DNA of 64,000 nucleotides, from assembly GCF_013004105.1 (NCBI RefSeq), contig NZ_CP053085.1, positions 2,604,001 through 2,668,000 of the forward strand. The letters are read 5' to 3'. The stretch comes from Gemmatimonas groenlandica (lineage in GTDB: Bacteria > Gemmatimonadota > Gemmatimonadetes > Gemmatimonadales > Gemmatimonadaceae). This document shows, in pieces, positions 1 through 15,908 of this stretch. The notes beneath the pieces were generated by a model. The model saw only the letters and a list, made by a program, of their open reading frames with translations, made no database searches and had not been told where the DNA came from. Position 1 is the stretch's first letter. Each line of letters starts with the position of its first letter. The position numbers and the translations under genes were made by a program.

Positions 1-1980
1 CAGCTGGAAGTTGAGATCCGTGCGCAGATCGGTCAGCGCGCGATCGAGCTCATCATGCAGCTGCTTGTCCTTCTCGAGTGCATCGAGTGTTTCCTGCAGA
101 CGCGCGAGATCGCGCCGGCCCTGCTCGGCGCTGTCGAGTGCCGCCCGCGCCCGCTCCGCTTCACCCGCTGCGCTGACGGCATCGAGCTCAGCACGGCGGG
201 CCTCGGCGGCGGCGCGCTCATGCGCGTCACGTACGCGCTGATACGACGTGTCATCCATGCCGAGCGCGGTGCGCTGCCGTTCGAGCTCGACGACCTTCGT
301 GCGCGCCGCATCGCGCAACACCGATACGCGCCCGCGCTCGGTGCGCGTGACATCCTCGCGCTCCACGAGCCCGCCCACCCGCGCCGCCTTCGTTTCAAGC
401 TCCTGCAATCGCACCACGTCCTCGCGGAGCGCGCGATGCCGATGCGCATCGTAGCCCAGCGGCAACGCCGCCAGCTGCTCCGTGGCCTGTGCGAGTCGCG
501 CGGCGAGATCGGTTCGCGAGTCGGCCACCTGCGTCGCCTCGACCAGCGCGTTCTGGATCCGCAGCAGCCTCCGCTCGGCGGCGGAGAGCTCCGTCTGCAT
601 GGTGCGACGCTGCTCGTCCAACGCCTCGATGGCGGCCGGCACCGCGGCGAGCTGCTCGACGCGCTGGCGGTAGTAGTTGCCATCAATACGCACGGTCTCG
701 ATCTGCTCGTTGAGCAGGTCGAGCACGCCCCGATACGACGCGCCGAGCGGCCGCCCGCAGGTCGGGCACGGTGACTCCTCGCCAAGTCCTTCGAGCGTAT
801 CACGCTGCTCGGTCAACTCCGAGTACTGGCGTCGGAGGGCTTCGAGACGCGTCTCGGCTTCCTGTCCGTCCCTCGTCCAGGCTTTGCTCTCCGCGTCGAA
901 CGTTCGCTCGACCTCGGTCAGTGTGCCACGAAGCGTCGTGATCTGCAGTTGCGTATCACGCTCCAGCGTCGGCGCCGATTCCAGTCGGGCGGCGCGCTCA
1001 GCGAGCTTGGCATCTTCCTCGGCCACCGTGCGCACGCGTTCCATGAGCGCCTGCCGACGCGCATCGGCCGCCGCGAGCTGCTCCAACGCTTCCAGTTCGG
1101 ACCGCAATGAGAGCAGCGGCAGAATGGCATGCCGCAACGGCGCGAGTTCGCGGTGCGCGAGCGCCACGGCATCGAGCTCGCGATCGAGCCGATCGACTTC
1201 GCGGGCGAAACCCATCGCCTCGCTCTCGGCCACGCGTAGCTCGGCCAGCAGCTGCTGCATCTGATCTCGCTGCGCCTGGGCATCGAGCCACTGCGGCGCG
1301 ACGGCGCTCAGCCGCTCGGACGTGCCGACGCGCGCGACTTCGGCTTCCGCTGCGCGCGTGCGCGCGACGGCGAGTCGCGCTTCCGCGTCGGCCACGCCGC
1401 GCCAGATGGCATCGGCGTCGGGCATGCCCTGTTTCAGTCCATTGATCTCGGCCATCAGCGCGCGACGACGCTCGCGCGCAATCTCCTGTGCTCCGCTGAT
1501 GCGGTCGTAACCCAGCACACGCGAGAGAAAGCGGGCCCGCTCCGCCGCACCGAGCGAGGCCATGACATCGAGCTCTTTCTGTCCGGTGAAGTACGTGTGA
1601 AAGAACTCGGAGCGCGTCATGCCGAGCCGCCGCTGCAGCAACTCCGTGGCGCCGGTGATCGTGTTGGCGATCGGCACATCGCCGCCGTCGAGAAAGACCT
1701 CGGCGTTCGTGAGGCCGCGCATCACCCGATAGCGGTGGCCGGCGAGCTCGAACTCCAGCTCCACCTTCACTGAGGCGCGCGGCGCCGCGCGCGAGAAGCG
1801 GATGGAATCGCGTGTGCCGCGCGCCGCCGGTGTGCCGTACAACGACCACGCGATCGCTTCCAGCAGCGTGGACTTGCCGGAGCCGTTGGGGCCGATGATG
1901 CCCGTCAGGCCGCGTTCGAATTCGATGCGGGTGTCGGCGTGCTGGCGGAAGTTCTGCAAACGGAGTGAGATCAGTCGCAT
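1..1980 (-). CDS. sbcC: SbcC/Rad50-like DNA repair ATPase (C-terminus beyond window)
   Basis: SMC-like ATPase that works with SbcD (Mre11) to open, trim and tether DNA ends and hairpins. Seen: start MRLISLRLQNF, a P-loop GPNGSGKST at residues 30-38, long Glu/Arg/Ala-rich coiled-coil stretches, and a zinc hook CPTC at residues 405-408 (codons 768-757). About 660 residues are present; the second coiled-coil half and the Walker B/signature region lie beyond base 1. The start codon lies 3 bp after the sbcD stop, so the two genes are almost certainly co-translated. It is the last visible gene of a five-gene minus-strand cluster with nurA and herA. Open reading on the opposite strand here is codon-bias shadow. 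Confidence 0.93.
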   Translation of the reverse strand, partial: MRLISLRLQNFRQHADTRIEFERGLTGIIGPNGSGKSTLLEAIAWSLYGTPAARGTRDSIRFSRAAPRASVKVELEFELAGHRYRVMRGLTNAEVFLDGGDVPIANTITGATELLQRRLGMTRSEFFHTYFTGQKELDVMASLGAAERARFLSRVLGYDRISGAQEIARERRRALMAEINGLKQGMPDADAIWRGVADAEARLAVARTRAAEAEVARVGTSERLSAVAPQWLDAQAQRDQMQQLLAELRVAESEAMGFAREVDRLDRELDAVALAHRELAPLRHAILPLLSLRSELEALEQLAAADARRQALMERVRTVAEEDAKLAERAARLESAPTLERDTQLQITTLRGTLTEVERTFDAESKAWTRDGQEAETRLEALRRQYSELTEQRDTLEGLGEESPCPTCGRPLGASYRGVLDLLNEQIETVRIDGNYYRQRVEQLAAVPAAIEALDEQRRTMQTELSAAERRLLRIQNALVEATQVADSRTDLAARLAQATEQLAALPLGYDAHRHRALREDVVRLQELETKAARVGGLVEREDVTRTERGRVSVLRDAARTKVVELERQRTALGMDDTSYQRVRDAHERAAAEARRAELDAVSAAGEAERARAALDSAEQGRRDLARLQETLDALEKDKQLHDELDRALTDLRTDLNFQL

Positions 1981-1983
1981 CCG

Positions 1984-3180
1984 TCAGCCCTCCAGCACAG
2001 GAAGGGCGGCCATGGCCGCGTCTTCGGCCTGCTGCAGATACCGCAGGCCGAGGGAGACCAAGGCCTCGCGATCGACGCCGGGCGGCAACGGCCGCTCGTT
2101 GAGGCGCTCCGCGACCAGCTCCGGCAGCGTAGCCCGACGACCCGGTGCGCCTTCGCCCTTGCCGCGACGAGCCAACACTTCCGGCCGTCGCGCGTCGAGA
2201 TGAAAGTGCGTCGCACGCCGTCGGTACTCACGCAGCGCGTCGTGACTGAGTTCGCGCACGATGTGGCGCGCAATGTTGCGCACCGTCACCCGCACGACGC
2301 GATCGTCGATGCCGCCGATCGCACTGTCCACACGCGCGCGCAGCGCGCTGTCGACTTCGGCCGCGCCCATGCCACTCGCATCGATCGGCTCGAGATCGAG
2401 TAGCGGGCGCGATGGCGCCACCGGATGAAAGCGATGCGCGCCCGACACCAGATCGTGTTCGATGAACCCCTTGCCCGGGATGCGCTGCTCGCGTTCCTCG
2501 CGCAACTCGCCCCAGGGGTTCGAACTCGTGTAGTCGAGTGATCCGCTGTAGTAGGCGCGCGTGGCCACCTCGCGATAGACGTGATAGTGCCCGAGCGCGA
2601 CGTAACTCCACTGCTCGGCGTGCAGCTCTGCCGGATCGATCTCGATGGCCGCGCGATCGGCCGGGGCCGCGTGCGCGGGCAGCATACCGGCGATCTCACC
2701 GTGCAGCAGCAGCACCGTGTGATCGAAGCCTTCGGGGGGCACGAACGGCGGTCGGTCGATGCCGGGAACATCGGGCACCGCCAGTACCGCGAGTGAACGC
2801 CCGGCGAAGGTGAACAACTCGGCCTTGGCATCGGCGACATACACACCGATTTCGCGGAACAGCCGCAGGATGCATCCCGTTTCCGACGTGCGCGGCGCAT
2901 CGTGATTGCCCGCCACCATCACGACCGGGGTGTCGGGGAGTCGATCGCGCAGGGCGGAGAATGTGCGGAAGGCGTGCAGAATGGCGGGGTTCGACGGGCG
3001 CACGGTGTGGAATACATCGCCGCCGACCACGATCAGGTCGGGCGCACATTCGATGATCTGGGCCACGGCACGCGACACCGTCGCGGCGACATCCGCCTCG
3101 CGCTGGTTGATTCCGGTCGGCGTGAGCCGCTGATACTGGCGGAATCCGAGATGGAGATCGCTGAGGTGGACCAGGCGCAT
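1984..3180 (-). CDS. sbcD: SbcD/Mre11-type metallophosphoesterase exonuclease
   Basis: Mn-dependent nuclease subunit of the SbcCD (Mre11-Rad50) complex, 398 residues. All phosphoesterase motifs are readable: HLSDLHLGF near the N-terminus, GGDVFH, VAGNHDAP, LLLHGE and GHYHVY. The C-terminal half resembles the capping/DNA-binding part of the family. An upstream ATG at 3213 would add 11 residues, but the phosphoesterase fold normally begins right at MRLVHLSDLHLG, so 3180 was chosen. It lies 57 bp after the secreted-protein gene and 3 bp before sbcC. Confidence 0.95.
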   Translation of the reverse strand: MRLVHLSDLHLGFRQYQRLTPTGINQREADVAATVSRAVAQIIECAPDLIVVGGDVFHTVRPSNPAILHAFRTFSALRDRLPDTPVVMVAGNHDAPRTSETGCILRLFREIGVYVADAKAELFTFAGRSLAVLAVPDVPGIDRPPFVPPEGFDHTVLLLHGEIAGMLPAHAAPADRAAIEIDPAELHAEQWSYVALGHYHVYREVATRAYYSGSLDYTSSNPWGELREEREQRIPGKGFIEHDLVSGAHRFHPVAPSRPLLDLEPIDASGMGAAEVDSALRARVDSAIGGIDDRVVRVTVRNIARHIVRELSHDALREYRRRATHFHLDARRPEVLARRGKGEGAPGRRATLPELVAERLNERPLPPGVDREALVSLGLRYLQQAEDAAMAALPVLEG

Positions 3181-3237
3181 GCTGCAACCTACAGAACGAC
3201 CCCGTCCGCTCAAAGCGTGGGGGCTGCCCGGCGCCGG

Positions 3238-4230
3238 TCAGCGAATACGAATGCGCTGGACGATGCGCAGATCGAGCAACATCGGCTGGGCGGCTTCGGC
3301 CGGGCCGGGTGTGACTTCGGACTGCACGTCGATGACGGTTCGGGCGTCGACGATCCACGCGCGCAGGCGGTCGAGGACCATCGTGCCGCGCACGGTCCCG
3401 GCGGTGACCACCCGCGTGCCGGCCGGCAGTTCACGGGCAGCGCCGTCCCGACGGAGTTCACCCTCCATCGAGATCCATGCACTCCGCCCGCCCTGCGTAA
3501 GGGAATCGAGGCGGAAGCGCGTGCGCACCACGCCGTCGGCGCGATAGCCACTGACGGGGAGCGAAGGCAGCACGATATCGCGCACCCAGCGCTCGCCGAC
3601 CTGCACGGCGTGCTCAGGCAGCAGAGCGGGCATCGAGGCCAGCGTGGCGCCGAGTTCCATAGCGCCCGGTGGGGGATCGCTCACCCGCATCGCCCCGTCG
3701 GGAGTGACGCGCACGCGCACCTGCCGCCCATCGGCGGGAAGTGGCAGCATCTCGGGACGTGCCTGTTCGGCGGCGGTCCCGGCCCACATGGCCATCGAAT
3801 CGGTCGTCGCCAGCAGGGTCGTGGACGTCAGATCACTCGCCTCGACCAAGGAGTGGGCGTACATGACCAGCTTGGTCACACGAAGCGACGCACGTGCACG
3901 GCGCGGCCCGTAATCCGGTGACTTCGACGCGGGCGGCAGCGTGCCGCCGGCGCGACGTCCGTCGATACCGGTCCCTGACCCCACGGGCGGAACCGAGGAT
4001 TGCGTACGGCGTCCGCTCATCTCGATGGTCTGCTCCATCTGCAGACGCAGCAGATCACCCACCCGCGGACGCACGATGAGTGTCACCCCGTCGGGACCCG
4101 GCCGCAGTGATTGCGCGGACAGCTGCGGCGTGGCCACGAATAGACCCGCGAGCATGAGCGTGCAGGAACCGGTCCGCACGCAGCACGCCCGGGTGAGCAG
4201 CCACTCACGGATTCCACTCGGCGATGTCAT
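3238..4230 (-). CDS. Secreted protein of unknown function inside the repair cluster
   Basis: Protein of 330 residues that I cannot assign to a family. A hydrophobic segment at about residues 23-40 (SCTLMLAGLFVAT then SAQS) looks like a cleavable Sec signal, so the mature part should be exported. The rest is predicted beta-rich with many Val/Arg/Thr, no transmembrane helix, no cysteine cluster and no enzyme motif. The ATG at 4230 overlaps the herA TGA by 4 bp (ATGA), which supports this start and translational coupling to a cytosolic DNA-processing gene. An exported product in this position is odd. It may be only positional, or the hydrophobic stretch may not be a signal. Confidence 0.8.
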   Translation of the reverse strand: MTSPSGIREWLLTRACCVRTGSCTLMLAGLFVATPQLSAQSLRPGPDGVTLIVRPRVGDLLRLQMEQTIEMSGRRTQSSVPPVGSGTGIDGRRAGGTLPPASKSPDYGPRRARASLRVTKLVMYAHSLVEASDLTSTTLLATTDSMAMWAGTAAEQARPEMLPLPADGRQVRVRVTPDGAMRVSDPPPGAMELGATLASMPALLPEHAVQVGERWVRDIVLPSLPVSGYRADGVVRTRFRLDSLTQGGRSAWISMEGELRRDGAARELPAGTRVVTAGTVRGTMVLDRLRAWIVDARTVIDVQSEVTPGPAEAAQPMLLDLRIVQRIRIR

Positions 4231-6251
4231 CCGCCGTATTCGTCGGGCGAGAAGGAGCGGAGCGCGCGGGGACGCGGTGTCACGGCTTCGACTTCACTGG
4301 CGGTCGGTCGCGCGCGACGCGCCAGTTCACGGGTGAAGGCGCGCTTCACGTCGTCAGGGCGCGTGCGCACGACCGCATTGCGCGCCGCCAGCACGACATG
4401 TTCGTCGTACAGCAGAATGGTTTGCTGCACGAAGCCAAGATCGATGGTGTCGTCGAGACGGCGCAGCTCGCGCGTGACGGCTTGCGCCAACGAGGGTTCG
4501 GGTGCCTGCGGAAACCGCTCCACACCCTCCCGTCCGGACATCACCGAGGGGCGCGGAAAACGCACGAACACCGGCTGTGTGAAATGCGGATGACGCACCA
4601 TGAGCTGTCCCTTGTCGAGGGTGGCCATACGCGCTTTGATCGCCGGACTCAGCACCTGATACCCCGGTGAGGCCAACTCGTCGCCATCCATGCGCCCATA
4701 GAGCGCCGTGCCTGCATTCCCCGTCACGCGACGATGCACCTGCGAGCGAAACTGCTGTGCGCCGAACAGCACGAGACCGAGATACCGACCACGTTCGGCG
4801 ATATCGAGCAGCATTTTGCGGACATAGGTATCGGGACCATCATGAGGCGCATACTTGTTCAGCTCATCGACGAAGACGATGACATGATCGACGCCAAGCT
4901 CCCGCCGCTCGAGTTGTTCACGCAGTCGGGACACCACACGGGCGAAGACGAGGTCCTGCGCGTCTTCCTCCACATTGGCGACATCGACCACGTACACCGC
5001 GCGATCCACAAAGCTCCCGAACGGCAGATCGGACACAGCGCCGTCATCGGTGACCAACCCCGCGCAGCGCGTGGACAGATTGGACAGCCGGTTCCGGACT
5101 TTCCGTACGGTCGCCGCGTGGTGTGTGCGCCACGTGTCGCCGTTCGAATCCTCGAGCTTGCGGAGCACATCACGGAACCATGCGTCCAGGTCGGCGAACG
5201 ACTGCACGCGGTGCGTTCGCGAAAAACCCGGCTCCTCGAAGTCCTTGCCGACGACGCGCTCGCGAATGAAGTCGATGAGCGCATCGGCCTTCGCGTCGAT
5301 GTCGTCCTTGTTCAGCAACACTTCCGCGAACTGCAGCACTTCGCCGAGTCCCCATGTGAGCGGCGACACACTGTCGGCGAGGGCAGGATGCGTGCGCAGT
5401 GTGTTCAGGGCGAAGCCGCGGGCCGTGAACGGCGCGAAGTAGCGCACGTCCTGAAACGGCGTCGGGGGTACACCGAGCATCTCGTACATCTCGAGATCGG
5501 CCGGCTCGAGCTTTCCTGGCTGGTCGAGGAAACAGAGGTCGGGACCCTTCACGTTGAAGCACACCGCCGCCACGGTACCGCGATGCGCCGGGAAATGCGC
5601 GAAGATCGACTGCAACAGCCACTCGATCGCACTGGTCTTCGTCGCGAGACCGGACACGCCGGAGATGTTCAGGTGCGCCGCTTCCGGCCCCACGAGAAAG
5701 TCGGCGTCGAGAAAGATCGGCGACCGCATGCCGCCGGCCCGGTACACGCCGACCGGAATGCCCGTCGACGATTCACCGGTGATGTAGCCGTCCATGCGCA
5801 GGGCTACGGCGACGTCGGCATCATCAGCGAGGTACACCGCGCCGAGCGGCACCGGTTGCAACGGTTCCTCGGGGATGTGTCGCAACACCGACGCCGTGTA
5901 CAGCCGGATCTCGGTGCGATCGGTGTGCGACAGCGGTCCGTCGTGGGGCCGCCCATCGTGCCCGAGCACATCGTGCAGCGGGGACTGGAGGTCGCTGTAG
6001 CTGAAGCCTTCCACCACGACACCGTACACGCGCGGAATCACGTTCTCCACCGGTGTATTGCCTTCAACGCGCACAATCGTACCGATGCCGATCGGGGCGT
6101 CGATGGCCGTCCAGAAATGGAACTCGTGCGGCGTATTGGGTTTCTTCTCCGTCGCCACGACACGACCGAGCGGAAGCGATACAACAGCGGGGACTACGGA
6201 AGGCGAGGTCACAGCGTCACGGCGAAGAAGGTCAGTGGCCCACGAGCGCAT
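4227..6251 (-). CDS. herA: HerA-like hexameric DNA translocase/ATPase
   Basis: FtsK/HerA-superfamily ATPase expected to pump DNA to the NurA nuclease during end resection, 674 residues from the ATG at 6251. Seen: an N-terminal HAS-barrel-like part (PLGRVVATEKK onward), a P-loop-like segment GVSGLATKTS at residues 198-207 with Lys205, and a Walker B strand FVDELNKYAP with Asp462-Glu463. The P-loop has Thr where the family usually has Gly before the Lys. The ATG at 6251 overlaps the nurA end by 20 bp; a GTG at 6212 would start 20 bp after the nurA stop and is an alternative. The downstream secreted-protein ATG overlaps this stop. Confidence 0.88.
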   Translation of the reverse strand: MRSWATDLLRRDAVTSPSVVPAVVSLPLGRVVATEKKPNTPHEFHFWTAIDAPIGIGTIVRVEGNTPVENVIPRVYGVVVEGFSYSDLQSPLHDVLGHDGRPHDGPLSHTDRTEIRLYTASVLRHIPEEPLQPVPLGAVYLADDADVAVALRMDGYITGESSTGIPVGVYRAGGMRSPIFLDADFLVGPEAAHLNISGVSGLATKTSAIEWLLQSIFAHFPAHRGTVAAVCFNVKGPDLCFLDQPGKLEPADLEMYEMLGVPPTPFQDVRYFAPFTARGFALNTLRTHPALADSVSPLTWGLGEVLQFAEVLLNKDDIDAKADALIDFIRERVVGKDFEEPGFSRTHRVQSFADLDAWFRDVLRKLEDSNGDTWRTHHAATVRKVRNRLSNLSTRCAGLVTDDGAVSDLPFGSFVDRAVYVVDVANVEEDAQDLVFARVVSRLREQLERRELGVDHVIVFVDELNKYAPHDGPDTYVRKMLLDIAERGRYLGLVLFGAQQFRSQVHRRVTGNAGTALYGRMDGDELASPGYQVLSPAIKARMATLDKGQLMVRHPHFTQPVFVRFPRPSVMSGREGVERFPQAPEPSLAQAVTRELRRLDDTIDLGFVQQTILLYDEHVVLAARNAVVRTRPDDVKRAFTRELARRARPTASEVEAVTPRPRALRSFSPDEYGG

Positions 6252-7296
6252 CGAGATACATCTCACAGGCGTGAATGCCGTAGGTGAGGGTATCCCATCG
6301 TGGATCGGGAAGCGAGAGCGGGGCCCGCTCGGCGAGGATGCCGGCGGAGATCCGGTCGCAGTGCGCCGTGAGCCGCGCCCGCGCCTCGTCGGTGATCTGC
6401 TCGGGGTCGAGCATATCGGCGGGCGGGGACACTTCCACGCGTACCAGTCCATGCAACGGATCACCACCGGCGGCCGTGCGCAGTCGCAGATACCAACTCG
6501 CCACCGCGCGGCGCGGACGATGCCCGACGAGGAAGGCCGGCGAACGCGCCGCTTCTTCGAGCGCGAGCACCGACGCGACCTGTTCCGCGGTACCGTACAG
6601 CGTCGTATGCGACTTCACGACGCCGAATGCCGTTGCCCGTTCGTCCACCGCCAGATTGCCGGAAATGCCGCCGTCGATCCAGAGCCATCGCGATTCACTG
6701 CGACACCATTCCGCGGCGAGTCGCCGTTCGAGCCCTTCCCGCTCCAGCGCCACCAGATCGAGGGCGCGGGCGCGGAGTGCAAAGGGATGCACCGGGATCG
6801 CGTCGTCGGTCATGTCCGCGGTGATATCCACCACGGGGACCCCACTTTCCCGCAGTTGGTTCCACGCGGTCTCGCCGAGCCTGCCGCGCGACACGAACAG
6901 GGCGCGACGCACGCTGGGTTCGCGCCACGTCTCCAGTCGGCGCGCTACGCGCTCGCGGACCGCCGCCGCGACCGAGGCATAGATCAACGGCGATCCGGCG
7001 ACGTAGCCCACCACACGGCTTCGCTGTACCCCGTCGAGAAAACCGGCGACCAACGGCGCGGCCGGCACCGCGACCAGCCGCGCCCCGGGCCCCTCCAGCG
7101 GCACACAGGGCGCCACGGAGGGGGGATCACTGCGCAGGGCGATACGTTCGAGCGGCGGACCACTTCCGGCCGACAGCAGCGCCCCGTCGCCGAACAGCGC
7201 GCGGAGGGAGCGGAGGGCGCCGCGGAGCGAGGCATCAGCCGGTGGGCGTTCGTCAGTCACGAGGGGCACGCTAGCGGGACGGGCGCCCGCAGACAA
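6232..7296 (-). CDS. nurA: NurA-domain nuclease
   Basis: Predicted 5'-3' nuclease partner of HerA, 354 residues. NurA proteins are recognised by metal-binding aspartates on short strands. Here FLDGVQRSR (Asp88) and WLWIDGGISGN (Asp208), with GVVKSH (Lys228) just after, fit that pattern, and the position immediately upstream of herA with a 20-bp overlap strongly supports it. The N-terminal 45 residues are Ala/Pro-rich, so a start a little further in (GTG at codon 13) is possible. This is the first gene of the minus-strand cluster; the cluster promoter should lie in 7297-7363, shared with the divergent lipoprotein gene. Confidence 0.82.
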   Translation of the reverse strand: MSAGARPASVPLVTDERPPADASLRGALRSLRALFGDGALLSAGSGPPLERIALRSDPPSVAPCVPLEGPGARLVAVPAAPLVAGFLDGVQRSRVVGYVAGSPLIYASVAAAVRERVARRLETWREPSVRRALFVSRGRLGETAWNQLRESGVPVVDITADMTDDAIPVHPFALRARALDLVALEREGLERRLAAEWCRSESRWLWIDGGISGNLAVDERATAFGVVKSHTTLYGTAEQVASVLALEEAARSPAFLVGHRPRRAVASWYLRLRTAAGGDPLHGLVRVEVSPPADMLDPEQITDEARARLTAHCDRISAGILAERAPLSLPDPRWDTLTYGIHACEMYLDALVGH

Positions 7297-7363
7297 TCAG
7301 CCCGGCGCGTCCGCGACGGCCCCGGTGGTGGACTTCGGCGCCCCGGTCCACGAAACTCAGAGG

Positions 7364-8347
7364 GTGAGACTCTCCCGACCTTCTGCCATCGTCACCCCGC
7401 GACTCCGCGGCGTGGCCCTTCGTGCGCTGCCCCTCGCGCTCGCGCTGCTGTCCGCCGCCTGCGACACCACGGAGCGAGTCAAGAATGCGCTCAAGGCCGA
7501 CCAAGGCGATCCGGTCTGGCAGGGCGACAGCACACTCCTCGCTCCGCATCCTGAAGTGCTGTTCCGCGTGACGCGTGACAGCACCGGTCCGCGCATCGTG
7601 CCGCTGGCCACGATGGGACCGCAGGGATTCCGCCTGCTCACCATGAGCGATCGCGGCTGGCGCTCGTTCGATATCGATTATCTCAACGCGGGCAAGTCAC
7701 TCACGCCGTATCGCGGTGGTCGGCCGCTGGCGCCGGTCAGCTCCACCCGCGGCATGTGGGAGGGGGCGCCGCTCGACACGATCCGCGGCTGCTCGCTCAT
7801 TCTCCCTGGCGCGCTGGCATCGATCCCCGATGGCGTCGAGTTCTTCACCAGTGGGAAGCGACCGCCCCTGAAAGCGGTCACGTCGTTGTCGGCGGGAGAA
7901 CTGCAGACGGCGATCGACGCCATTCCCACCCTGATCGCGCCGGCGGCTGGCATTTCGATGTCGATGCTGCCGCGCTACAAGCGCGAGGTGTTCGTCGCCG
8001 AAACCGGCAATGGCCCGCGTCCCACGATCGTCGTGGTGTACGACGACCCCGAAGTCGTGGCCGACAGCGTTCGCCAGATGGGCGCGCGCCCTCGCCACCT
8101 GGTGGTCGTGCTAGACAAGGGCGTGTACGGCTACAAGCCGACGTTTACCTACACGACCCTCGGCAACAAGCTGTCACCGCCGCGCTATCGCTATCTCGAC
8201 CACATCGACGTGGACGATGACGGTAAGTCGGAGCTCTTCTTCGGTCTCAAGATCAAGGGTGCGCCGCTCTATACCATCGTGCTCCGGTACGAAGCGGAGG
8301 CGTGGCGTGAGCTACTGCGCAACGAGCGGCAGCGCTGCCACGCCTGA
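7364..8347 (+). CDS. Lipoprotein of unknown function
   Basis: Exported lipoprotein of about 327 residues. The GTG start at 7364 gives an Arg-rich n-region, a Leu/Ala h-region and the lipobox LLSAAC (Cys33). A GTG at 7325 would add 13 residues and make the signal unusually long. The mature protein carries no motif I recognise. Its C-terminus has an acidic DVDDDGKSELFF segment resembling FG-GAP/dockerin-type calcium loops, so a Ca-binding loop is possible. It is divergent from nurA, with the two starts 67 bp apart, and ends in a bidirectional hairpin shared with the convergent Lrp-like gene. Confidence 0.75.
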   Translation: MRLSRPSAIVTPRLRGVALRALPLALALLSAACDTTERVKNALKADQGDPVWQGDSTLLAPHPEVLFRVTRDSTGPRIVPLATMGPQGFRLLTMSDRGWRSFDIDYLNAGKSLTPYRGGRPLAPVSSTRGMWEGAPLDTIRGCSLILPGALASIPDGVEFFTSGKRPPLKAVTSLSAGELQTAIDAIPTLIAPAAGISMSMLPRYKREVFVAETGNGPRPTIVVVYDDPEVVADSVRQMGARPRHLVVVLDKGVYGYKPTFTYTTLGNKLSPPRYRYLDHIDVDDDGKSELFFGLKIKGAPLYTIVLRYEAEAWRELLRNERQRCHA

Positions 8348-8376
8348 CATCGGAGTCGCCTACTCGACTCCGATGT
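8347..8376. terminator. Bidirectional hairpin terminator
   Basis: A perfect 12-bp stem (8347-8358 with 8365-8376) and a 6-nt loop lie at the junction of two convergent genes. The stem overlaps the last codons of the Lrp-like gene, so it can act on both transcripts. No strong T run follows. Confidence 0.7.
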
Positions 8377-8638
8377 CCCACGCCTGCTCGAGATCGTTGC
8401 GGCTGTAGGCGCGAAAGGCCGTGAGCGTCTGCGTCCGGATGATCCCGGGCACTTTGGCAAACTCCTCGGTCACCACGGTCGCGATGCGTTCGAGATCGGG
8501 TACGCGCACGATCGCCACGAGGTCCCATGCGCCTGACACCGAGTAGACCTCGCTCACGCCTTCGATGCCCGCCAGCGCCGTCGCACACGCGGGGATGGTT
8601 TTCGGATCAGCCTGCACCAGCACGATGGTCGTGATCAT
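8360..8638 (-). CDS. Stand-alone Lrp/AsnC ligand-binding (RAM) domain protein
   Basis: A 92-residue protein covering only the alpha/beta effector-binding domain of Lrp/AsnC regulators, without the N-terminal helix-turn-helix. The pattern is visible: a first strand ITTIVLVQADP, then VSEVYSVSGAWDLVAIVRV typical of the RAM ligand pocket, and the closing strand TQTLTAF. Such proteins form rings and bind amino acids but not DNA on their own; some partner with full-length Lrp. It sits 49 bp downstream of the aminotransferase stop on the same strand, so an amino-acid-responsive role is a reasonable inference. Confidence 0.88.
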   Translation of the reverse strand: MITTIVLVQADPKTIPACATALAGIEGVSEVYSVSGAWDLVAIVRVPDLERIATVVTEEFAKVPGIIRTQTLTAFRAYSRNDLEQAWDIGVE

Positions 8639-8686
8639 GATCGCCTCGAAAAGCGTGAAGTAGTCGGCGCGCGCGAACGCGCTGCC

Positions 8687-9880
8687 TCAGGTGCCAGTGA
8701 GGCAGCGGGCGATGCGCGTCACGCCTTCGACGGCCACTGACTCCGTCGTGGCGTAGCTCGCGCGGATCCAGTCGGGCGTGAGAAACGCGCTGCCCGGTAC
8801 GACCGCCACTTGGTGTTCCTCGAGCACGGCCGCCGCGAATGCCGCACCGGCATCGGCGGCACCGCGGAACCCGGCAACGTTGATGTACACGTAGAACGCG
8901 CCGGCCGGATGCACGTACCGGATCGTCGGAAACTTTGCCAGCGCCGCCACCACCGCATCACGGCGCTGACGGAACTCCTTGACCATGTAGTTCACGGCAG
9001 CATTCGCCTCCGACTGCCGCTCGAGGGCCGCGAGCGCGGCATGTTGCGACACGGCCGCCGCGTTCGACGTCGTGTGCGACTGAAACGCCGTCATCGCCTT
9101 CGAGACCGCTACCGGCGCGATCGTCCAGCCGATCCGCCATCCCGTCATCGCGTAGGCTTTCGCGACGCCGTTGATCACGATCAGGTTGTCGCGCGTCTTC
9201 GCGACTTCGAGCGCCGACTGTGCACCGCCCTCGTACGCAATGCGCAGATAGATCTCGTCGGCGAGCACCCACCATCCCTTCTCGGCCGCAAGGTCGAGAA
9301 TCGCCGTGAGCTCGTCGCGCGTGTACACCGCACCGGTGGGGTTGCTCGGCGAATTGAGCATGAGCCCCTTCGTTCGCGGCGTCGCGGCGGCGGCTAGCTG
9401 GGCGGACGTCACCTTGAGGTCGTTGGCTTCGTCGCCGTATACCGGAACCGATACCGCGCGCGCCAACTCGACCATTTCGAAGTAGCTCGTCCACGCTGGC
9501 GTGGGAATCAGCACCTCATCACCGGGGCCAAAGCAGCAAACGCACGCGTTGTAGAGCGACTGCTTGGACCCGTTGGACACTACGATTTCCGCCGCCGTGA
9601 TCTGCGCGCCATGCGCGAGTAGACGGTTGGCGTCGGCAGCGATCGCTTCACGAAGCGGCAGAATGCCTTCGGTGGCGGTGTAGCGGGTCGCCCCCGCTTC
9701 GACGGCCGCCTCGGCCGCCTCACGGATAAAGGCCGGGGTATCGAAGTCCGGCTCGCCGGCGCCAAGGTCGATGATCGCGTGACCGGCAGCCTTGAGCGCT
9801 CTTGCCTTGGCGGCCACCGCCAGCGTCGCAGATTCCTTGAGTCGGGCGATGTTGGCGGACGGCTGGAAGACCAGAGACAT
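8687..9880 (-). CDS. Class I PLP-dependent aminotransferase (aspartate aminotransferase type)
   Basis: Transfers an amino group between an amino acid and a 2-oxo acid using PLP. 397 residues from the ATG at 9880 (MSLVFQPSANI). Seen: GAGEPDFDTP near the N-terminus (substrate loop), SNGSKQSLYNA, NSPSNPTGAVYTRDEL, the ADEIY strand, and the PLP lysine in GVAKAYAMTGWRIGW (about Lys241). This matches the subfamily I-gamma aspartate/aromatic aminotransferases; specificity cannot be read. An in-frame start at 9982 would add 34 non-conserved residues and was rejected. A hairpin (stem 9923-9929 with 9942-9948) lies in its leader. Confidence 0.93.
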   Translation of the reverse strand: MSLVFQPSANIARLKESATLAVAAKARALKAAGHAIIDLGAGEPDFDTPAFIREAAEAAVEAGATRYTATEGILPLREAIAADANRLLAHGAQITAAEIVVSNGSKQSLYNACVCCFGPGDEVLIPTPAWTSYFEMVELARAVSVPVYGDEANDLKVTSAQLAAAATPRTKGLMLNSPSNPTGAVYTRDELTAILDLAAEKGWWVLADEIYLRIAYEGGAQSALEVAKTRDNLIVINGVAKAYAMTGWRIGWTIAPVAVSKAMTAFQSHTTSNAAAVSQHAALAALERQSEANAAVNYMVKEFRQRRDAVVAALAKFPTIRYVHPAGAFYVYINVAGFRGAADAGAAFAAAVLEEHQVAVVPGSAFLTPDWIRASYATTESVAVEGVTRIARCLTGT

Positions 9881-10001
9881 GATCGAGGCGCGGAACGGAG
9901 GTGGATGCCCAGGGCAAACTTGCCGGCCCCCCTGCAGTTCAGGGCCGGAATTGGCTATTTTCAGATGCTGGACATGAAGCAATTAAGCGCGACCGTCAGA
10001 G

Positions 10002-10037
10002 GTGCGCTACGCGGGTGCGGTGTGCTACGCAGGTGTG
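10002..10037. repeat. Tandem pair of 18-bp direct repeats
   Basis: Two abutting 18-bp units, 10002-10019 and 10020-10037, agree at 15 of 18 positions. They lie in the intergenic stretch between the aminotransferase and the pseudo-helicase, about 57 bp before the chosen start of the latter. Spacing near two helical turns is compatible with a repressor or activator site, but chance duplication is possible. Confidence 0.5.
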
Positions 10038-10093
10038 CGCCATAGGGGCGCGACAATCACTGGCCGTTGGGCGGCCAGGCTGACCGACAATCG

Positions 10094-11986
10094 ATGGGGT
10101 GGGGCGTGGGCGAGCAAGAACGGGAAGAGACGTCGCCAGGGGCGACGCGGAGCCAGCACGTTGTGCTGCAGGGACCCGCAGATCTGCGGATGATGACTGC
10201 CGCTATGCGTCCGGGGATCGAACGCAGCCGACGCATGCAGGGCGTGGCCGCACCGGCCTGCCTGGTGATCACCCCTACCGTCGAGCAGGCGCTGAGCGCC
10301 GCCGAGCAGGCACGCTCGCTGCTGGCTGACGAGAATCTACGGGTTGTGCCCGTGACGTCCGCCACCCGTGCCCGTCGCGTGTTGGCCGCCGGTCCCGTCG
10401 CGGTAGTCACCGGCACGGCCGCCGACCTGCTCGCGCTTCGCAAGGAAGCCGCCATCGACCTGCAGCAACTGCAGGTACTCGTGGTGTTCAGTCTCGACGA
10501 GATCCTCGCCGACAAGATGGGCGACACGTTGCAGGCGCTGCTTGGCGATTCGCCCGACGAGATGATGCGCGTCGGCACCATCGACAGCGAGTCGGACGAG
10601 ATCGACGCCTTCCTCGAAGCACAGATGCGCCGGGCGCGTCGTCTCACGCCGATGTTGGCCGGTGACACGCCGCTGGCGATGACGCCGAGCTTCGTAATCA
10701 CGTCGGCCTCGGGGCGTGCCGATGCGTTGCGCGCGATTCTCGATGAAGTCGATCCGCCCTCGGTCGTAGTGGTCGCCACGACGGAAGCCGGACAGCGCGA
10801 GGCGCATGCAGCCATCACGCGCATCGGCATGGTGGTCGATGGGCTCAACGTGCAGGTCGTGCGCCAGGCCACGTCGCAGCACGTCGCACTGGTCGTGCTC
10901 TGGGAGTCGCCGGTGTCGTACGACGCGCTGGTCGACGCGCTCGCCGCGCGACCGGTCGATGCGGTGGCCCTGCTGATGGCCGACGAACTCGCGGCCTTCC
11001 GTCGCATGACGGCCGGTCTGGCCGAAGCCTGGACGCCGGCCGCCCGCAAGGCGAACGCGGAAAGCCGCGTGCAGGCGTTGCGCGCGGCACTGCGCACGAC
11101 GCTCTCGAATTCCGGCGGTACGTCGGCCAGCGAAATGGCGTTGCTTGCGCCGTTGCTGGAAACGCATGACTCGCTCGAGATCGCCGCCGCGGCCCTGCGG
11201 TTGTACGAAGGGGCCCGTCGCGACCTGGTCACGGCGCGCACCAAGGCCACGATCGCCGGACCGGTGCGTACTCCGCTGGCCGCCGGTCACAAGCCGGACG
11301 CGCCGGCCGCTGACGGCAAGCAGCGCGTGTTCCTCGCCGCCGGCAAGCGCGATGGCGTGCGCGTTGGAGACATCGTCGGCGCCGTTGCGAACGAAGCGGG
11401 CATCCCGGGCGACCGAATCGGTCAGGTCGAACTGTTCGAATCGCACGCGATCGTCGAACTCAATGCCGACGATGCCGCCAAGGTCGTCCAGGCGCTGGGT
11501 TCCGTCTCGCTCCGCGGCCGTCGTCTCAGCGCACGCATCGACGAGCGCAGTGGTGAAGCGCCGCGCGGTGGCGATCGCGGTGGCGATCGTGGCCCGCGTA
11601 GTAGTCCTCGCAGCGAGCGCACGTTCGGCCCGCCGCGTCGCGACGCCGGTGATCGTCCGCCTCGCGGCAACGATCGTGGCAATGATCGGGGGGAGCGGCC
11701 TGCCCGTCCGTCCTTTGGCGGCGACCGGCCGGCCCGCCCGTCGTTCGGTGGTGACCGTGGTCCGCGTCCGGAAGGCCGCGGCGGCCCGCCGCGTGGTGGC
11801 AATGACCGTCCACCGCGTGCCGACGAAGAGCGTCGCGCCTTCGGCGACCGTCCCGTGCGTGAGCGCGCGGAAGGTCGGGAGGAGTGGTCGGAGCGTGGGG
11901 CGCGCATGCAGAATGCGAGTCGGAAGCCGCGTCCGAACACCGACGCGAATCCTGAAGGGAAACCCGACGGGAGCGTCGAGAGCTGA
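10094..11986 (+). CDS. Degenerate DEAD-box helicase-like protein with DbpA RNA-binding domain and RG-rich tail
   Basis: About 630 residues from the ATG at 10094 (TTG at 10067 is an alternative). Order: a helicase-like core, residues 1-400; a DbpA/CsdA-type RNA-binding domain at about 408-483 (start [13 protein letters not shown], strand [11 protein letters not shown]); and an RG/RGG-like tail from 484 with repeated [11 protein letters not shown] units. The core keeps the spacing of a DEAD-box protein but not its catalysis: the region of motif I reads [10 protein letters not shown] with no GKT, motif Ia is PTVEQ (residues 61-65) instead of PTREL, motif II is SLDEI (133-137) instead of DEAD, and no SAT or HRxGR motif is visible. 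I infer an RNA-binding scaffold for ribosome assembly or RNA decay, not an ATPase. It is followed 2 bp later by tdk. Confidence 0.8.
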
Positions 11987-11988
11987 TC

Positions 11989-12600
11989 ATGAGCGGCAGC
12001 TTTCAGGTCTCTGGCGGGTGGATGGAGGTCGTCGCTGGCTCGATGTTCAGCGGCAAGACCGAGGAGCTGTTGCGGCGCGTGCGGCGGGCGACGATCGCCC
12101 GCAAGCGCGTGCAGGTGTTCAAGTCGCACCTCGACGACCGGTACGCCGGCCTGTGGAATGTCTCCAGCCACGACCGGCGGACCTTCGAGGCGATTCCCGT
12201 CGACTCGTCGTCGCAGATTCTGCTGCGTCTCGACCCGATGGCACAGGTGATCGCCATCGACGAGGCGCAGTTCCTCGATGCCGGGATCGTGCAGGTGGCG
12301 TCGAGTCTGGCCGACCGTGGCCGGCGGGTCATTCTCGCCGGCATCGACAGCGACTTCCGCGGTGAGCCGTTCGGGCCGATGCCGCAGCTCATGGCGGTCG
12401 CGGAAATGGTCGACAAGCTGCACGCGATCTGCGTGCTGTGCGGATCGCCGGCCAGTCGCAATCAACGACTCATCGGCGGCAAGCCCGCGCCGTATGACTC
12501 ACCCACGATCATGGTGGGCGCGGCCGATTCGTACGAAGCGCGCTGCCGCGCCTGTCACATCGTGCCACGTCCGAACGAAGGACAGCAGCAGCTGCTGTAG
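11989..12600 (+). CDS. tdk: Thymidine kinase (type II)
   Basis: Salvage enzyme phosphorylating thymidine to dTMP. 203 residues, normal family length. Seen: P-loop GSMFSGKT at residues 17-24, Walker B/catalytic IDEAQF, the lasso-type FRGEPFGPM segment, and two zinc pairs, CVLCG and CRACH. The ATG begins 2 bp after the stop of the pseudo-helicase gene, so the two are likely co-transcribed. It converges on the histidine kinase gene with no intergenic base: the two stop codons abut at 12600/12601. Confidence 0.96.
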
Positions 12601-15600
12601 TCAGTTGGCCGCGCGCGCGCGGGCCAGGGACATCGCGTCGGCGAGCTGACCGCTGGTGAATGGCTTGCTCACGAAGGGCACACGTCGCGCGTCGATCGCC
12701 GCTCGCGCTCCCGGATTGATGCTGTAGCCGCTGACCGCCACCATCGGCAGGAGCGGATACCGGACGGCCACGGTCTCGATCAGCTCGATACCGTTCATGC
12801 CCGGCATCGTCAAATCGGTGACCATCACCGAGACGTCGGCGGCGTGCGAGGCCAGGACTTCGAGCGCATGCTGCGCAGACGGTGCCACCACGACCGCGTG
12901 CCCCAGTTTTTCCAGCATTCGCCGACCGAGGTCGAGCAGCATCGGATCGTCGTCCACGAGCAGGATGCTGCGCGCGGCGGGGACCGCGATCGGTATCGTC
13001 TCCGACGTGTCGCGAGGCAGTACGCGGGGCGACGACAACGGCGTGACGCGCGGCTCGGGTACCGATGCCGCCGGAAAGTACAAGCGGAGCGTTGTCCCCT
13101 CGCCGGCCGCCGACTCGCATTCGATGAAGCCGCGACTCTGGTGCACGAGGCCGTGCACAGAGGCCAGTCCCATTCCCTTGTTCGCGCCGAATTCCTGGGT
13201 CGAGAAGAACGGCTCGAAGAGCCGGGCCTTCAATTCGTCACGCATGCCGGTGCCCGTATCGGAGACCGAGAGCAGCGCGAACGGGCGCGGGTCGTCGCCG
13301 GCCGCGGCCTGCGGATGCCGCATCAGTACGATCGCCGTCGCCAGTGACAGCGTTCCGCTCTCCGCCTTGGCGATCATCGACGCGCGTGCATTGTCCACCA
13401 GCGTACGTAGCGCGTCGAGGAGTCGCGTGCGGTCGACGACCGCAGTGACCGGCGCGTCGCCGACGTCGAGCCGCACGTGAATCGATAGTGGGACTTCTTC
13501 GCGAATGACCGGGAGCTGATCGCGGAGCAGCTGATTGAGCTCCACCGACTCCGCCCGCAGCATCTGGCGACGTCCAACCGCGAGCAGTCGACGCGTAAGC
13601 TCTTCGGCGCGCTCCGTGGCGCGCTCGATCGCGTCGAGATCCTCGGCGTAGGGCGACGTCGGTCCAAACCCCTCTCGCAGGAACCCGGTCGAACCGCGAA
13701 TCACCGTGAGCAAATTGTTGAAGTCGTGGGCGATACCACCCGCCAGCTGGCCAACGGCTTCGAGCTTCTGCGCCTGACGCAGGCGATCTTCGGAGCTTCT
13801 GGCGTTGGTGACGTCAGTAAAGACGGCCACGGAGGCATAAGGGCGTTGCTCGCCCGAGCGGACGAGCGGATCGGCCGTGACGTTCAGCCAACCAAACGTA
13901 CCATCGCCCCGCTGCACGCCCATCAGTGACCGCGCCTGGCTCTGGCCGGTCTGTAGGGCGACGATGGCGGGATGTGTCTCGGGAGGCCACGGCGTACCGT
14001 CTTCACGCAACGCGCTCCACTCGCGATCCACCAGCTTGAGTCCCAGCAGTTGTGCGCCCGTCAATCCCAGAATGCGCTCGGCACTGGGGTTGTAGGCGCG
14101 AATCGCGCCCGTTTCGTCGTGTACCACGACACCTTCCTGCATGCCGGCAATAACAGCGCGGAAGCGCGCTTCCGACTCGCGCAGCTGTCGTTCGACGCGC
14201 ACACGATCGGTGATGTCCTGAATGATGATGTGCAACACGCGACGCCCCGCGATCGCGACCACGCCGATGAACGCCTCGACCTGACGCAGCTCACGATTGG
14301 CGACGCGATGCTCACGCTGCACGCGCAGCCCGGTTCCCGTAGCGATGGTCGAGGTGGTGTCGCGCCAGTGCTCGAGGGCGACCGCTTCGAGGTCCGTCAC
14401 GTACATCGCCCGCATCGTGTCACGCGGCCAGCCATAGAACGTTACGGCGGCCGGATTCACGTCGACGATGCGGGCCGTCTCGATGTCGGCGAGCAGCTGT
14501 ACCGCACCATTGTTCTCGAAAAGCTCGCGATGTCTCGCTTCGCTCTCCTCGAGCGCGAGGCGCTCGAGTTGCCGCGGCGTAATGTCACGCGAGGCGATCG
14601 CGACGGTGTCCTCGAGCACGGGTACGAGCTGACGTTGCAGCCAGCGGAGCGGCTGCTCGGCCGTTGGTGCGTGCTGCGTCGTTTCCAACGGCGCGCCGGT
14701 GATGAGGACCGAGCAGCACTGTTCCCACAGATTCCAGTCACGGCTGTTCGGGAACATCTCCATCAGCGAATGACCGAGGAGCTCTTCACGCGAACGCTTC
14801 ACCATGCTGGCGGCCCGGGCGTTCACATCGAGAATCTCGAAGCGATCGATCGTGCCGTCGCCGGTGCGGTGGGCGCGAGCAATGACGAAGGCGTCGAGTC
14901 CTGCCTCGATAACGCCGCGAAGTCGACTCTCCGATTCGCGCAACGCCTGTGATGCCTCCGCTTCCTCGGTGACGTTGCGCGCGAGCCCCAGCAGATGGGT
15001 CGCAGTGCCGTCGGCATCGCGGATCGCACTCAGGCGCGTTTCGAGCACGAGACGGCGTCCATCGAGCGTCACCACCTCGCGGTAGGAGATTGGCCCCCCG
15101 ATGGCGAGCACTTCCTCGCAGCGCGAACGCATGAGCGCCGCTTCCGCCGGCGGGAAGACCTCCTCCGGGATGCGCCCGACCAGCTGCTCAGCGTCGAGCC
15201 CAGCGGCCGCGAGATAGGTCTCGTTCACAGACTCGCAGCGGTACACCCCGGGCGCTTCGATGCGGAGGACGAACGCCATCTCGTGCATGTGCTCCGTGAG
15301 CATCCGGAGTCGCGATTCCCGGCGACCCGCCTCGCGCGCCGCAAGCGCCCGCGCCGTCACATCGCGAAGCTGCACCGTCAGGAAGGGCGTCCCGTCAGCG
15401 TCCGTTCCGGAGATCCGGAGTGCCTCCCAGACGCGTTCGCGCGCATCGTTTCCGACCGAGAACTCGAACGGTGACGCCACGGCGTCTACGCGGGATTCCG
15501 CGAGCCACGCCGAGAACGCGCCGTCGCCCACGTGCTTGGCGCACTGCTCCAGCCGCTGTCCCGTGAGCGCGTCGGGCGGGAAGCCGATCAAGCTGCCCGC

Positions 15601-15741
15601 GGCCGCGTTCGCGCCGAGAATTCGCCCCTGCTCGTCCGTCACGAACAGGACATCACGCAGGACCATCGCGGCCGACCGGAGCAACGCGGGGGAATCGGGA
15701 GGGCTTGGGGGCACGAGGCGAACGCGGACTATTTGAGCCAT
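12601..15741 (-). CDS. Multi-PAS hybrid sensor histidine kinase with C-terminal receiver
   Basis: About 1046 residues from the ATG at 15741; a start at 15840 would add 33 Pro-rich residues. No transmembrane segment is seen, so a cytosolic sensor is likely. Roughly five PAS/PAC modules cover residues 1-650 (for example VTDEQGRILGANAAAG, DETGAIRAYNPSAERILG). Then a HisKA-like helix with the phospho-histidine in GGIAHDFNNLL (His672), an HATPase domain with GTGMRDELKARLFEPFF and GMGLASVHGLV, and a receiver domain with ILLVDDDP, the acceptor Asp976 in VTDLTMPGMNG, and SKPF. The layout matches blue-light or redox-type hybrid kinases but no cofactor cysteine is obvious. It is divergent from the AraC-type regulator. 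Confidence 0.93.
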   Translation of the reverse strand: MAQIVRVRLVPPSPPDSPALLRSAAMVLRDVLFVTDEQGRILGANAAAGSLIGFPPDALTGQRLEQCAKHVGDGAFSAWLAESRVDAVASPFEFSVGNDARERVWEALRISGTDADGTPFLTVQLRDVTARALAAREAGRRESRLRMLTEHMHEMAFVLRIEAPGVYRCESVNETYLAAAGLDAEQLVGRIPEEVFPPAEAALMRSRCEEVLAIGGPISYREVVTLDGRRLVLETRLSAIRDADGTATHLLGLARNVTEEAEASQALRESESRLRGVIEAGLDAFVIARAHRTGDGTIDRFEILDVNARAASMVKRSREELLGHSLMEMFPNSRDWNLWEQCCSVLITGAPLETTQHAPTAEQPLRWLQRQLVPVLEDTVAIASRDITPRQLERLALEESEARHRELFENNGAVQLLADIETARIVDVNPAAVTFYGWPRDTMRAMYVTDLEAVALEHWRDTTSTIATGTGLRVQREHRVANRELRQVEAFIGVVAIAGRRVLHIIIQDITDRVRVERQLRESEARFRAVIAGMQEGVVVHDETGAIRAYNPSAERILGLTGAQLLGLKLVDREWSALREDGTPWPPETHPAIVALQTGQSQARSLMGVQRGDGTFGWLNVTADPLVRSGEQRPYASVAVFTDVTNARSSEDRLRQAQKLEAVGQLAGGIAHDFNNLLTVIRGSTGFLREGFGPTSPYAEDLDAIERATERAEELTRRLLAVGRRQMLRAESVELNQLLRDQLPVIREEVPLSIHVRLDVGDAPVTAVVDRTRLLDALRTLVDNARASMIAKAESGTLSLATAIVLMRHPQAAAGDDPRPFALLSVSDTGTGMRDELKARLFEPFFSTQEFGANKGMGLASVHGLVHQSRGFIECESAAGEGTTLRLYFPAASVPEPRVTPLSSPRVLPRDTSETIPIAVPAARSILLVDDDPMLLDLGRRMLEKLGHAVVVAPSAQHALEVLASHAADVSVMVTDLTMPGMNGIELIETVAVRYPLLPMVAVSGYSINPGARAAIDARRVPFVSKPFTSGQLADAMSLARARAAN

Positions 15742-15908
15742 CTCGGGCGGCGGCGCCGGTGGCGAAGACGGGAAATGTGTAAGGGAGAAGGGGCGTCCGT
15801 TAGTGGACAACGGGGCAATCGTGTGACGGATAGTGACCATTGACCAGCCCGCCGCGTCTTTGGGCTGATGTCAGTGTCAAGTCCCCTTTTCCCCGAACGG
15901 ATCGTCGC

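Follow-up and report, generated by a model that had tools for sequence, protein, structure and literature searches.

In the 64,000-nucleotide stretch of the Gemmatimonas groenlandica genome analyzed here (the window), which was taken from a genome assembled as one 5.18-Mb contig, positions 1 to 7296 carry five tightly packed genes, all on the minus strand, in the order nurA, herA, a gene for a secreted protein, sbcD, and sbcC (Table 1). Their positions are those reported in the first-pass annotation. Three of its junctions are also exact: herA and the secreted-protein gene overlap by 4 bp (ATGA), 57 bp separate the latter from sbcD, and 3 bp lie between sbcD and sbcC, which continues leftward from 1980 beyond the window and whose whole product comprises 825 aa (L107:7503-9980). 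The 20-bp overlap of nurA and herA is exact if herA starts at ATG 6251; a start at GTG 6212 is equally possible and leaves a 19-bp gap. The nurA start is placed at TTG 7296, with GTG 7269 and GTG 7260 as alternatives. The five genes may be transcribed together, and a promoter and terminator scan of the cluster returned nothing above chance.

Table 1. Genes of the row at the left edge of the window
Gene	Position	Strand	Product and remarks
nurA	6232..7296	-	NurA nuclease of bacterial type with RNase H-like fold; length up to 354 aa
herA	4227..6251	-	Predicted HerA/FtsK-type hexameric DNA translocase (sequence and fold)
DUF6263-family secreted protein gene	3238..4230	-	Optional cluster member; putative secretion
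sbcD/mre11	1984..3180	-	Predicted Mre11-type nuclease, 398 aa
sbcC/rad50	1..1980	-	Rad50-type SMC-like ATPase; truncated by window edge

SbcD matches Pfam Metallophos (E=5.7e-11) and the sbcd model TIGR00619 (E=3.3e-20, slightly under its cut-off), and displays the Mre11 motifs DLHLG, GGDVFH, GNHD, and GHYHV. SbcC matches the Rad50 model NF003034 (E=2.9e-50) and the SbcC model TIGR00618 (E=7e-29), with a P-loop GPNGSGKS and a zinc hook CPTC at 768-757. Metallophosphoesterase motifs, Walker A, zinc hook, and adjacency of the two genes, the marks of an SbcCD/Mre11-Rad50 pair, are all found here, and the earlier assignments of both proteins stand, as do the motifs cited for them and the NurA aspartates described below. 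Among solved structures, the best match of SbcD is Mre11 (3auz, E=1.4e-13), Mre11 chains rank at the top, and among models sbcd nearly ties with those of archaeal Mre11; SbcC finds Rad50 first (5f3w and 3aux, about 6e-31), and SbcC models score it lower than do Rad50 models and the Rad50 chains of archaea or Thermotoga, a likeness to Mre11 and Rad50 that is one of profile similarity and not of phylogeny. The gene between herA and sbcD encodes a protein with a signal-peptide-like N-terminal stretch, read by eye, and matches DUF6263 weakly when searched alone (E=0.0086), with 30 of 36 family members matching (best, 2.3e-10). It was found in 49 of the 80 GTDB loci listed and is absent or unrecognized in many genomes; it is still there in genomes missing nurA-herA.

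The profile search suggested by the first-pass annotation for HerA gave no match in Pfam and, for the protein alone, a marginal one in NCBIfam (E=0.0032). Its identification as HerA is instead carried by the Deinococcus radiodurans protein, which is found by single-sequence phmmer (E=1.2e-43), by a profile of near relatives (5e-61), and by a profile including distant members of the class (E=1.1e-159), the last over profile positions 5-563, nearly the whole protein. The structural model (pLDDT 75) matches 7wrw_A in Foldseek with E=9.8e-28 over 610 columns, a match by which HAS barrel and RecA-like domain are both recognized. The window HerA thus belongs to the D. radiodurans HerA family. Its Walker A motif (GVSGLATKT, 5660-5634; Walker B VFVDELN, 4877-4857) departs from the usual GxxGxGKT in having Thr at the position of the last Gly; since the core GxSGxATKT is invariant in 22 relatives and, by alignment, is also present in D. 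radiodurans HerA, we regard the odd P-loop as a family mark and not as decay. Among the GTDB loci listed, those with a 95-98% identical HerA carry the names Gemmatimonadetes or Gemmatimonas.

For NurA, the corresponding search with the Pfam model (PF09376) gave no match, nor did Pfam as a whole, NCBIfam, PHROGs, or PADLOC. These failures would speak for a wrong assignment, a possibility overturned by profile search, structure, and bridging relatives. A family profile built from 73 NurA sequences recovers D. radiodurans NurA 7f6d first in the PDB (E=6.9e-6) and Thermotoga maritima TM1739 at E=0.012, with one unrelated chain in between (0.006). The AlphaFold model (pLDDT 90.5) finds 7f6d_G (E=2.1e-12) and 1zup (E=7.9e-10) in Foldseek. 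In structural alignment it reaches Z 19.8 with 1zup (rmsd 4.0, 260 residues) and Z 19.6 with 7f6d (rmsd 3.9, 275 residues); archaeal NurA follows at Z 14.5 and below (2ygk, 14.5), and no other RNase H-like fold exceeds 9.6. Each of the ten best structure entries is a NurA or a NurA-type nuclease that partners a HerA-like pump. As a bridge, the nurA product of G015 matches the window protein (E=1.3e-20) and, weakly and below the cut-off, PF09376 (E=5.1e-4), and in family f5 the NurA genes that exceed the PF09376 cut-off sit immediately upstream of herA. The window protein is therefore a bacterial-type NurA. Its acidic residues lie in FLDG (7041-7030), at a Glu at about 6729-6727, and in IDGG (within 6681-6667), and the Asp of FLDG, the helix Glu, and the Asp of DGG are invariant across the 73 sequences; we take them to be equivalent to the catalytic residues of archaeal NurA. 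In a NurA homologue of G015 (L199), FLGG replaces FLDG, changing the first catalytic-type Asp to Gly, so that this copy is perhaps inactive.

The gene order is conserved far beyond chance. In a GTDB scan that listed 80 loci, the named ones being Gemmatimonadota, all four genes are present in 60, none of them with mixed strands, and many of the others are cut by contig ends. Where there was enough room, nurA is present in 74 of 77 loci listed and sbcD in 61 of 61. Both pairs are tight inside, with a nurA-herA gap of at most 100 nt in 67 of 76 and an sbcD-sbcC gap of at most 7 nt in all 63 loci listed, and the distance from herA to sbcD varies (median, 835 nt). We also sampled 150 genomes, in which the order Gemmatimonadales is represented by families f1-f3 (n=90), 53 of these genomes belonging to the window's own family. 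Across the 90 genomes, SbcD is found in 90, HerA in 81, and NurA in 75, strictly nested and with NurA never occurring without HerA. The distant families f5 and f7 of the class harbor the same four genes in the same order (L095, L097, L098), with HerA about 30% identical; in f4 (L084 and L085; G006 and G142) the cluster is more spread and nurA and herA lie kilobases apart. In some f5/f6 genomes a NurA homologue is located several kilobases from herA (L091, L093, L094, L096), in one case (L094) abutting an SbcC-like gene. The flank at window 7325-12600 shows one order across the genus, namely a 340-aa protein, an aminotransferase, a DbpA-like protein, and a thymidine kinase; with such conserved housekeeping neighbors the site is unlike a mobile defense island. 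Beyond it, a 1079-aa ORF (12601-15840) reads by eye as a sensor histidine kinase with multiple PAS domains and, at its C-terminus, a receiver domain.

The first-pass annotation held that absence of the order in close relatives would speak against its reading. Such absence is indeed seen in four of the six sampled congeners (G019, G055, G068, G078), but it extends only to the nurA-herA pair, sbcD-sbcC are kept at the same site, and the group as a whole retains the arrangement. There, thymidine kinase (in G068 outside the stretch examined), the DbpA-like gene, the aminotransferase, and the 340-residue gene are followed directly by DUF6263, sbcD, and sbcC. A genome of another genus of the family (G144) also lacks exactly nurA-herA at the syntenic site. 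NurA and HerA are both present in 47 and both absent in six genomes of the window's family; because exactly these two genes are missing together, they behave as a unit there. In total, nine of the order's sampled genomes retain SbcDC but have no NurA-HerA. Since sbcD-sbcC persist where exactly the pair is missing, SbcDC is independent of it, NurA-HerA being an add-on, and the repeated absence marks the pair as dispensable. Relatives outside the genus carry the pair at this site, so that loss is the simpler reading; parsimony on the SbcD tree requires the state of HerA to change eight times and that of NurA 14 times, counts that do not by themselves give the direction. In six f2 genomes herA is kept and nurA is not recognizable, and in L078, L080, and L081 (G012, G030, G103) the slot of nurA, flanked by the aminotransferase gene and herA, is occupied by a protein of roughly 170-190 aa. 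Relocation of NurA was rejected, as a profile search of the 15 genomes without nurA found none; in a control the profile recovered 13 of 16, missing G019 and two distant genomes only. The same search for HerA, run without a control of its own, was empty in nine genomes.

A recC-recB-recD cluster is located elsewhere in the window's genome, at about 4.367-4.374 Mb (G000:C1:4366533-4374144, L214), with scores of 545 bits for RecC (TIGR01450), 690 bits for RecB (TIGR00609), and 464 bits for RecD (TIGR01447); of the three, RecD alone passes its curated cut-off, and the stretch examined truncates the RecC frame. The congener G019 carries recB-recD too (L215). RecJ is also encoded in the window's genome. 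As the genome encodes RecBCD, NurA-HerA and SbcDC are not the sole resection enzymes here. Bacterial NurA-HerA has been described as limited to a few bacteria lacking RecBCD, e.g., Deinococcus-Thermus (PMC9960219), and the co-occurrence observed here departs from that view. All six NurA-HerA-negative genomes of the window's family have a RecB-type match (partial in G028). The idea that the pair is lost only where RecBCD substitutes was not supported, with p 0.25-1 for relatedness-independent pairs on the SbcD tree, and G013, G038, and G043 also show no RecB-level match.

Because HerA-NurA stand beside SbcD/SbcC in a conserved row, their probable task is the trimming of broken DNA ends for repair. 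Judging from sequence and by analogy, we consider it likely that the row is an operon for processing DNA ends, inherited vertically, in which a HerA pump with its NurA nuclease, together with SbcDC, works beside RecBCD and RecJ and does not replace them. SbcDC complexes are established as openers of blocked or hairpin ends. In this species, SbcC-SbcD (Rad50-Mre11) would recognize ends that are blocked, folded into hairpins, or bound by protein and open them, making them accessible, after which HerA, a putative hexameric duplex-DNA pump, would drive the duplex into a dimer of its partner nuclease NurA, where the strands would part and be cut. The two pairs would thereby act in succession, with SbcDC handing the end over to NurA-HerA, and the presumed outcome is a 3' single-stranded tail for RecA. 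The model for the second step is the D. radiodurans complex, in which six HerA feed duplex to a dimer of NurA that parts and cuts the strands (PMC9960219). Against end processing, nurA and herA mutants of D. radiodurans and Thermus show modest or contradictory repair phenotypes (PMC9960219, PMC5448004), and the role of bacterial NurA-HerA is described as uncertain (PMC9960219). The repeated absence of the pair, which extends to four of the six congeners sampled, and the presence of RecBCD and RecJ weigh on the same side.

A closer coupling, in which the four proteins form one physical machine, as the first-pass annotation took the gene order to imply, and HerA-NurA reaches broken ends through direct recruitment by SbcDC, is a tentative possibility that we rate somewhat below even chances. 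The tight order across Gemmatimonadales and into distant families argues for it, as does the presence of SbcD in every NurA-HerA genome of the order, and archaeal Mre11 is reported to bind HerA (PMC2288612). It fits less well with the nine genomes that keep SbcDC alone, with the variable secreted-protein gene that in many genomes separates one pair from the other, and with the separation of nurA and herA in f4. In its order-wide form, with NurA, HerA, SbcD, and SbcC as one end-resection machine throughout Gemmatimonadales that runs parallel to RecBCD where both are present, the proposal is rather doubtful; if true, Gemmatimonas species naturally without nurA-herA would show what that machine adds.

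That nurA-herA and sbcD-sbcC are separate units that merely stayed adjacent, as neighbors without a shared function, is unlikely. The tightness inside each pair, the variable gap between herA and sbcD, and the absence of nurA-herA where sbcD-sbcC stays are consistent with it, but inertia alone is unlikely to explain why the arrangement has persisted through the order and recurs in distant families, or why archaea and Oceanithermus share the layout (PMC5448004).

A 2026 Thermococcus study argues that HerA-NurA of that organism may not perform end resection, and it proposes an antiviral function (PMC12977600). Anti-phage or anti-plasmid defense, with the HerA pump and NurA nuclease destroying foreign duplex DNA, would agree with that proposal, with the patchy absence of the pair, with the HerA folds of defense systems and TdpAB (8wfd, Z 13.7) among the structural matches, and with a weak hit (27 bits) of HerA to mad8, a MADS protein, but is improbable given the fixed chromosomal site amid conserved housekeeping genes, the retention across the order, the failure of NurA to match defense or phage models, and nearest relatives that are the Deinococcus pair and not defense HerAs.

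Read as an end-processing operon, the row can be set beside several known systems. HerA-Sir2 and HerA-DUF4297 act in defense; they and TdpAB likewise join a HerA-type pump to a nuclease or effector, whereas here the partner is NurA, the site is fixed, and the fold matches are more distant. The herA-nurA-mre11-rad50 operon of archaea is classical, and it was to this that the first-pass annotation likened the cluster. In the form in which that operon is cited (Constantinesco 2004, cited in PMC5448004), the same four kinds of genes are clustered, so that the layout agrees; the label does not extend to NurA and HerA themselves, which are of bacterial, Deinococcus type, their nearest solved relatives being Deinococcus and Thermotoga proteins (for NurA, Z 14.5 with archaeal 2ygk versus 19.8). 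The closest counterpart in protein type is NurA-HerA of D. radiodurans (7f6d, 7wrw, 7wrx; PMC9960219), with a HerA of the same family over the whole protein, the unusual Walker A GxSGxATKTS, and a NurA of the bacterial-type fold. Unlike that pair, whose phylum, Deinococcus-Thermus, is described as lacking RecBCD (PMC9960219), the Gemmatimonas pair adjoins sbcD-sbcC in a genome with RecBCD. NurA-HerA is common in a whole order, next to SbcDC and, in this species, together with RecBCD, and its clean absence in congeners offers a natural comparison of what it adds to Mre11-Rad50 and RecBCD. A search of a partial literature collection found no paper on a NurA-HerA-SbcDC cluster in Gemmatimonadetes or Gemmatimonas. 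SbcD and SbcC beside herA in a bacterium have already been published for Oceanithermus profundus, where both genes lie downstream of hepA (herA) (PMC5448004). In that member of the Thermales the arrangement was read as local recruitment, whereas in Gemmatimonadota it is kept across an order; to the published case we add this order-wide conservation, the coexistence with RecBCD, and congeners lacking exactly nurA-herA.
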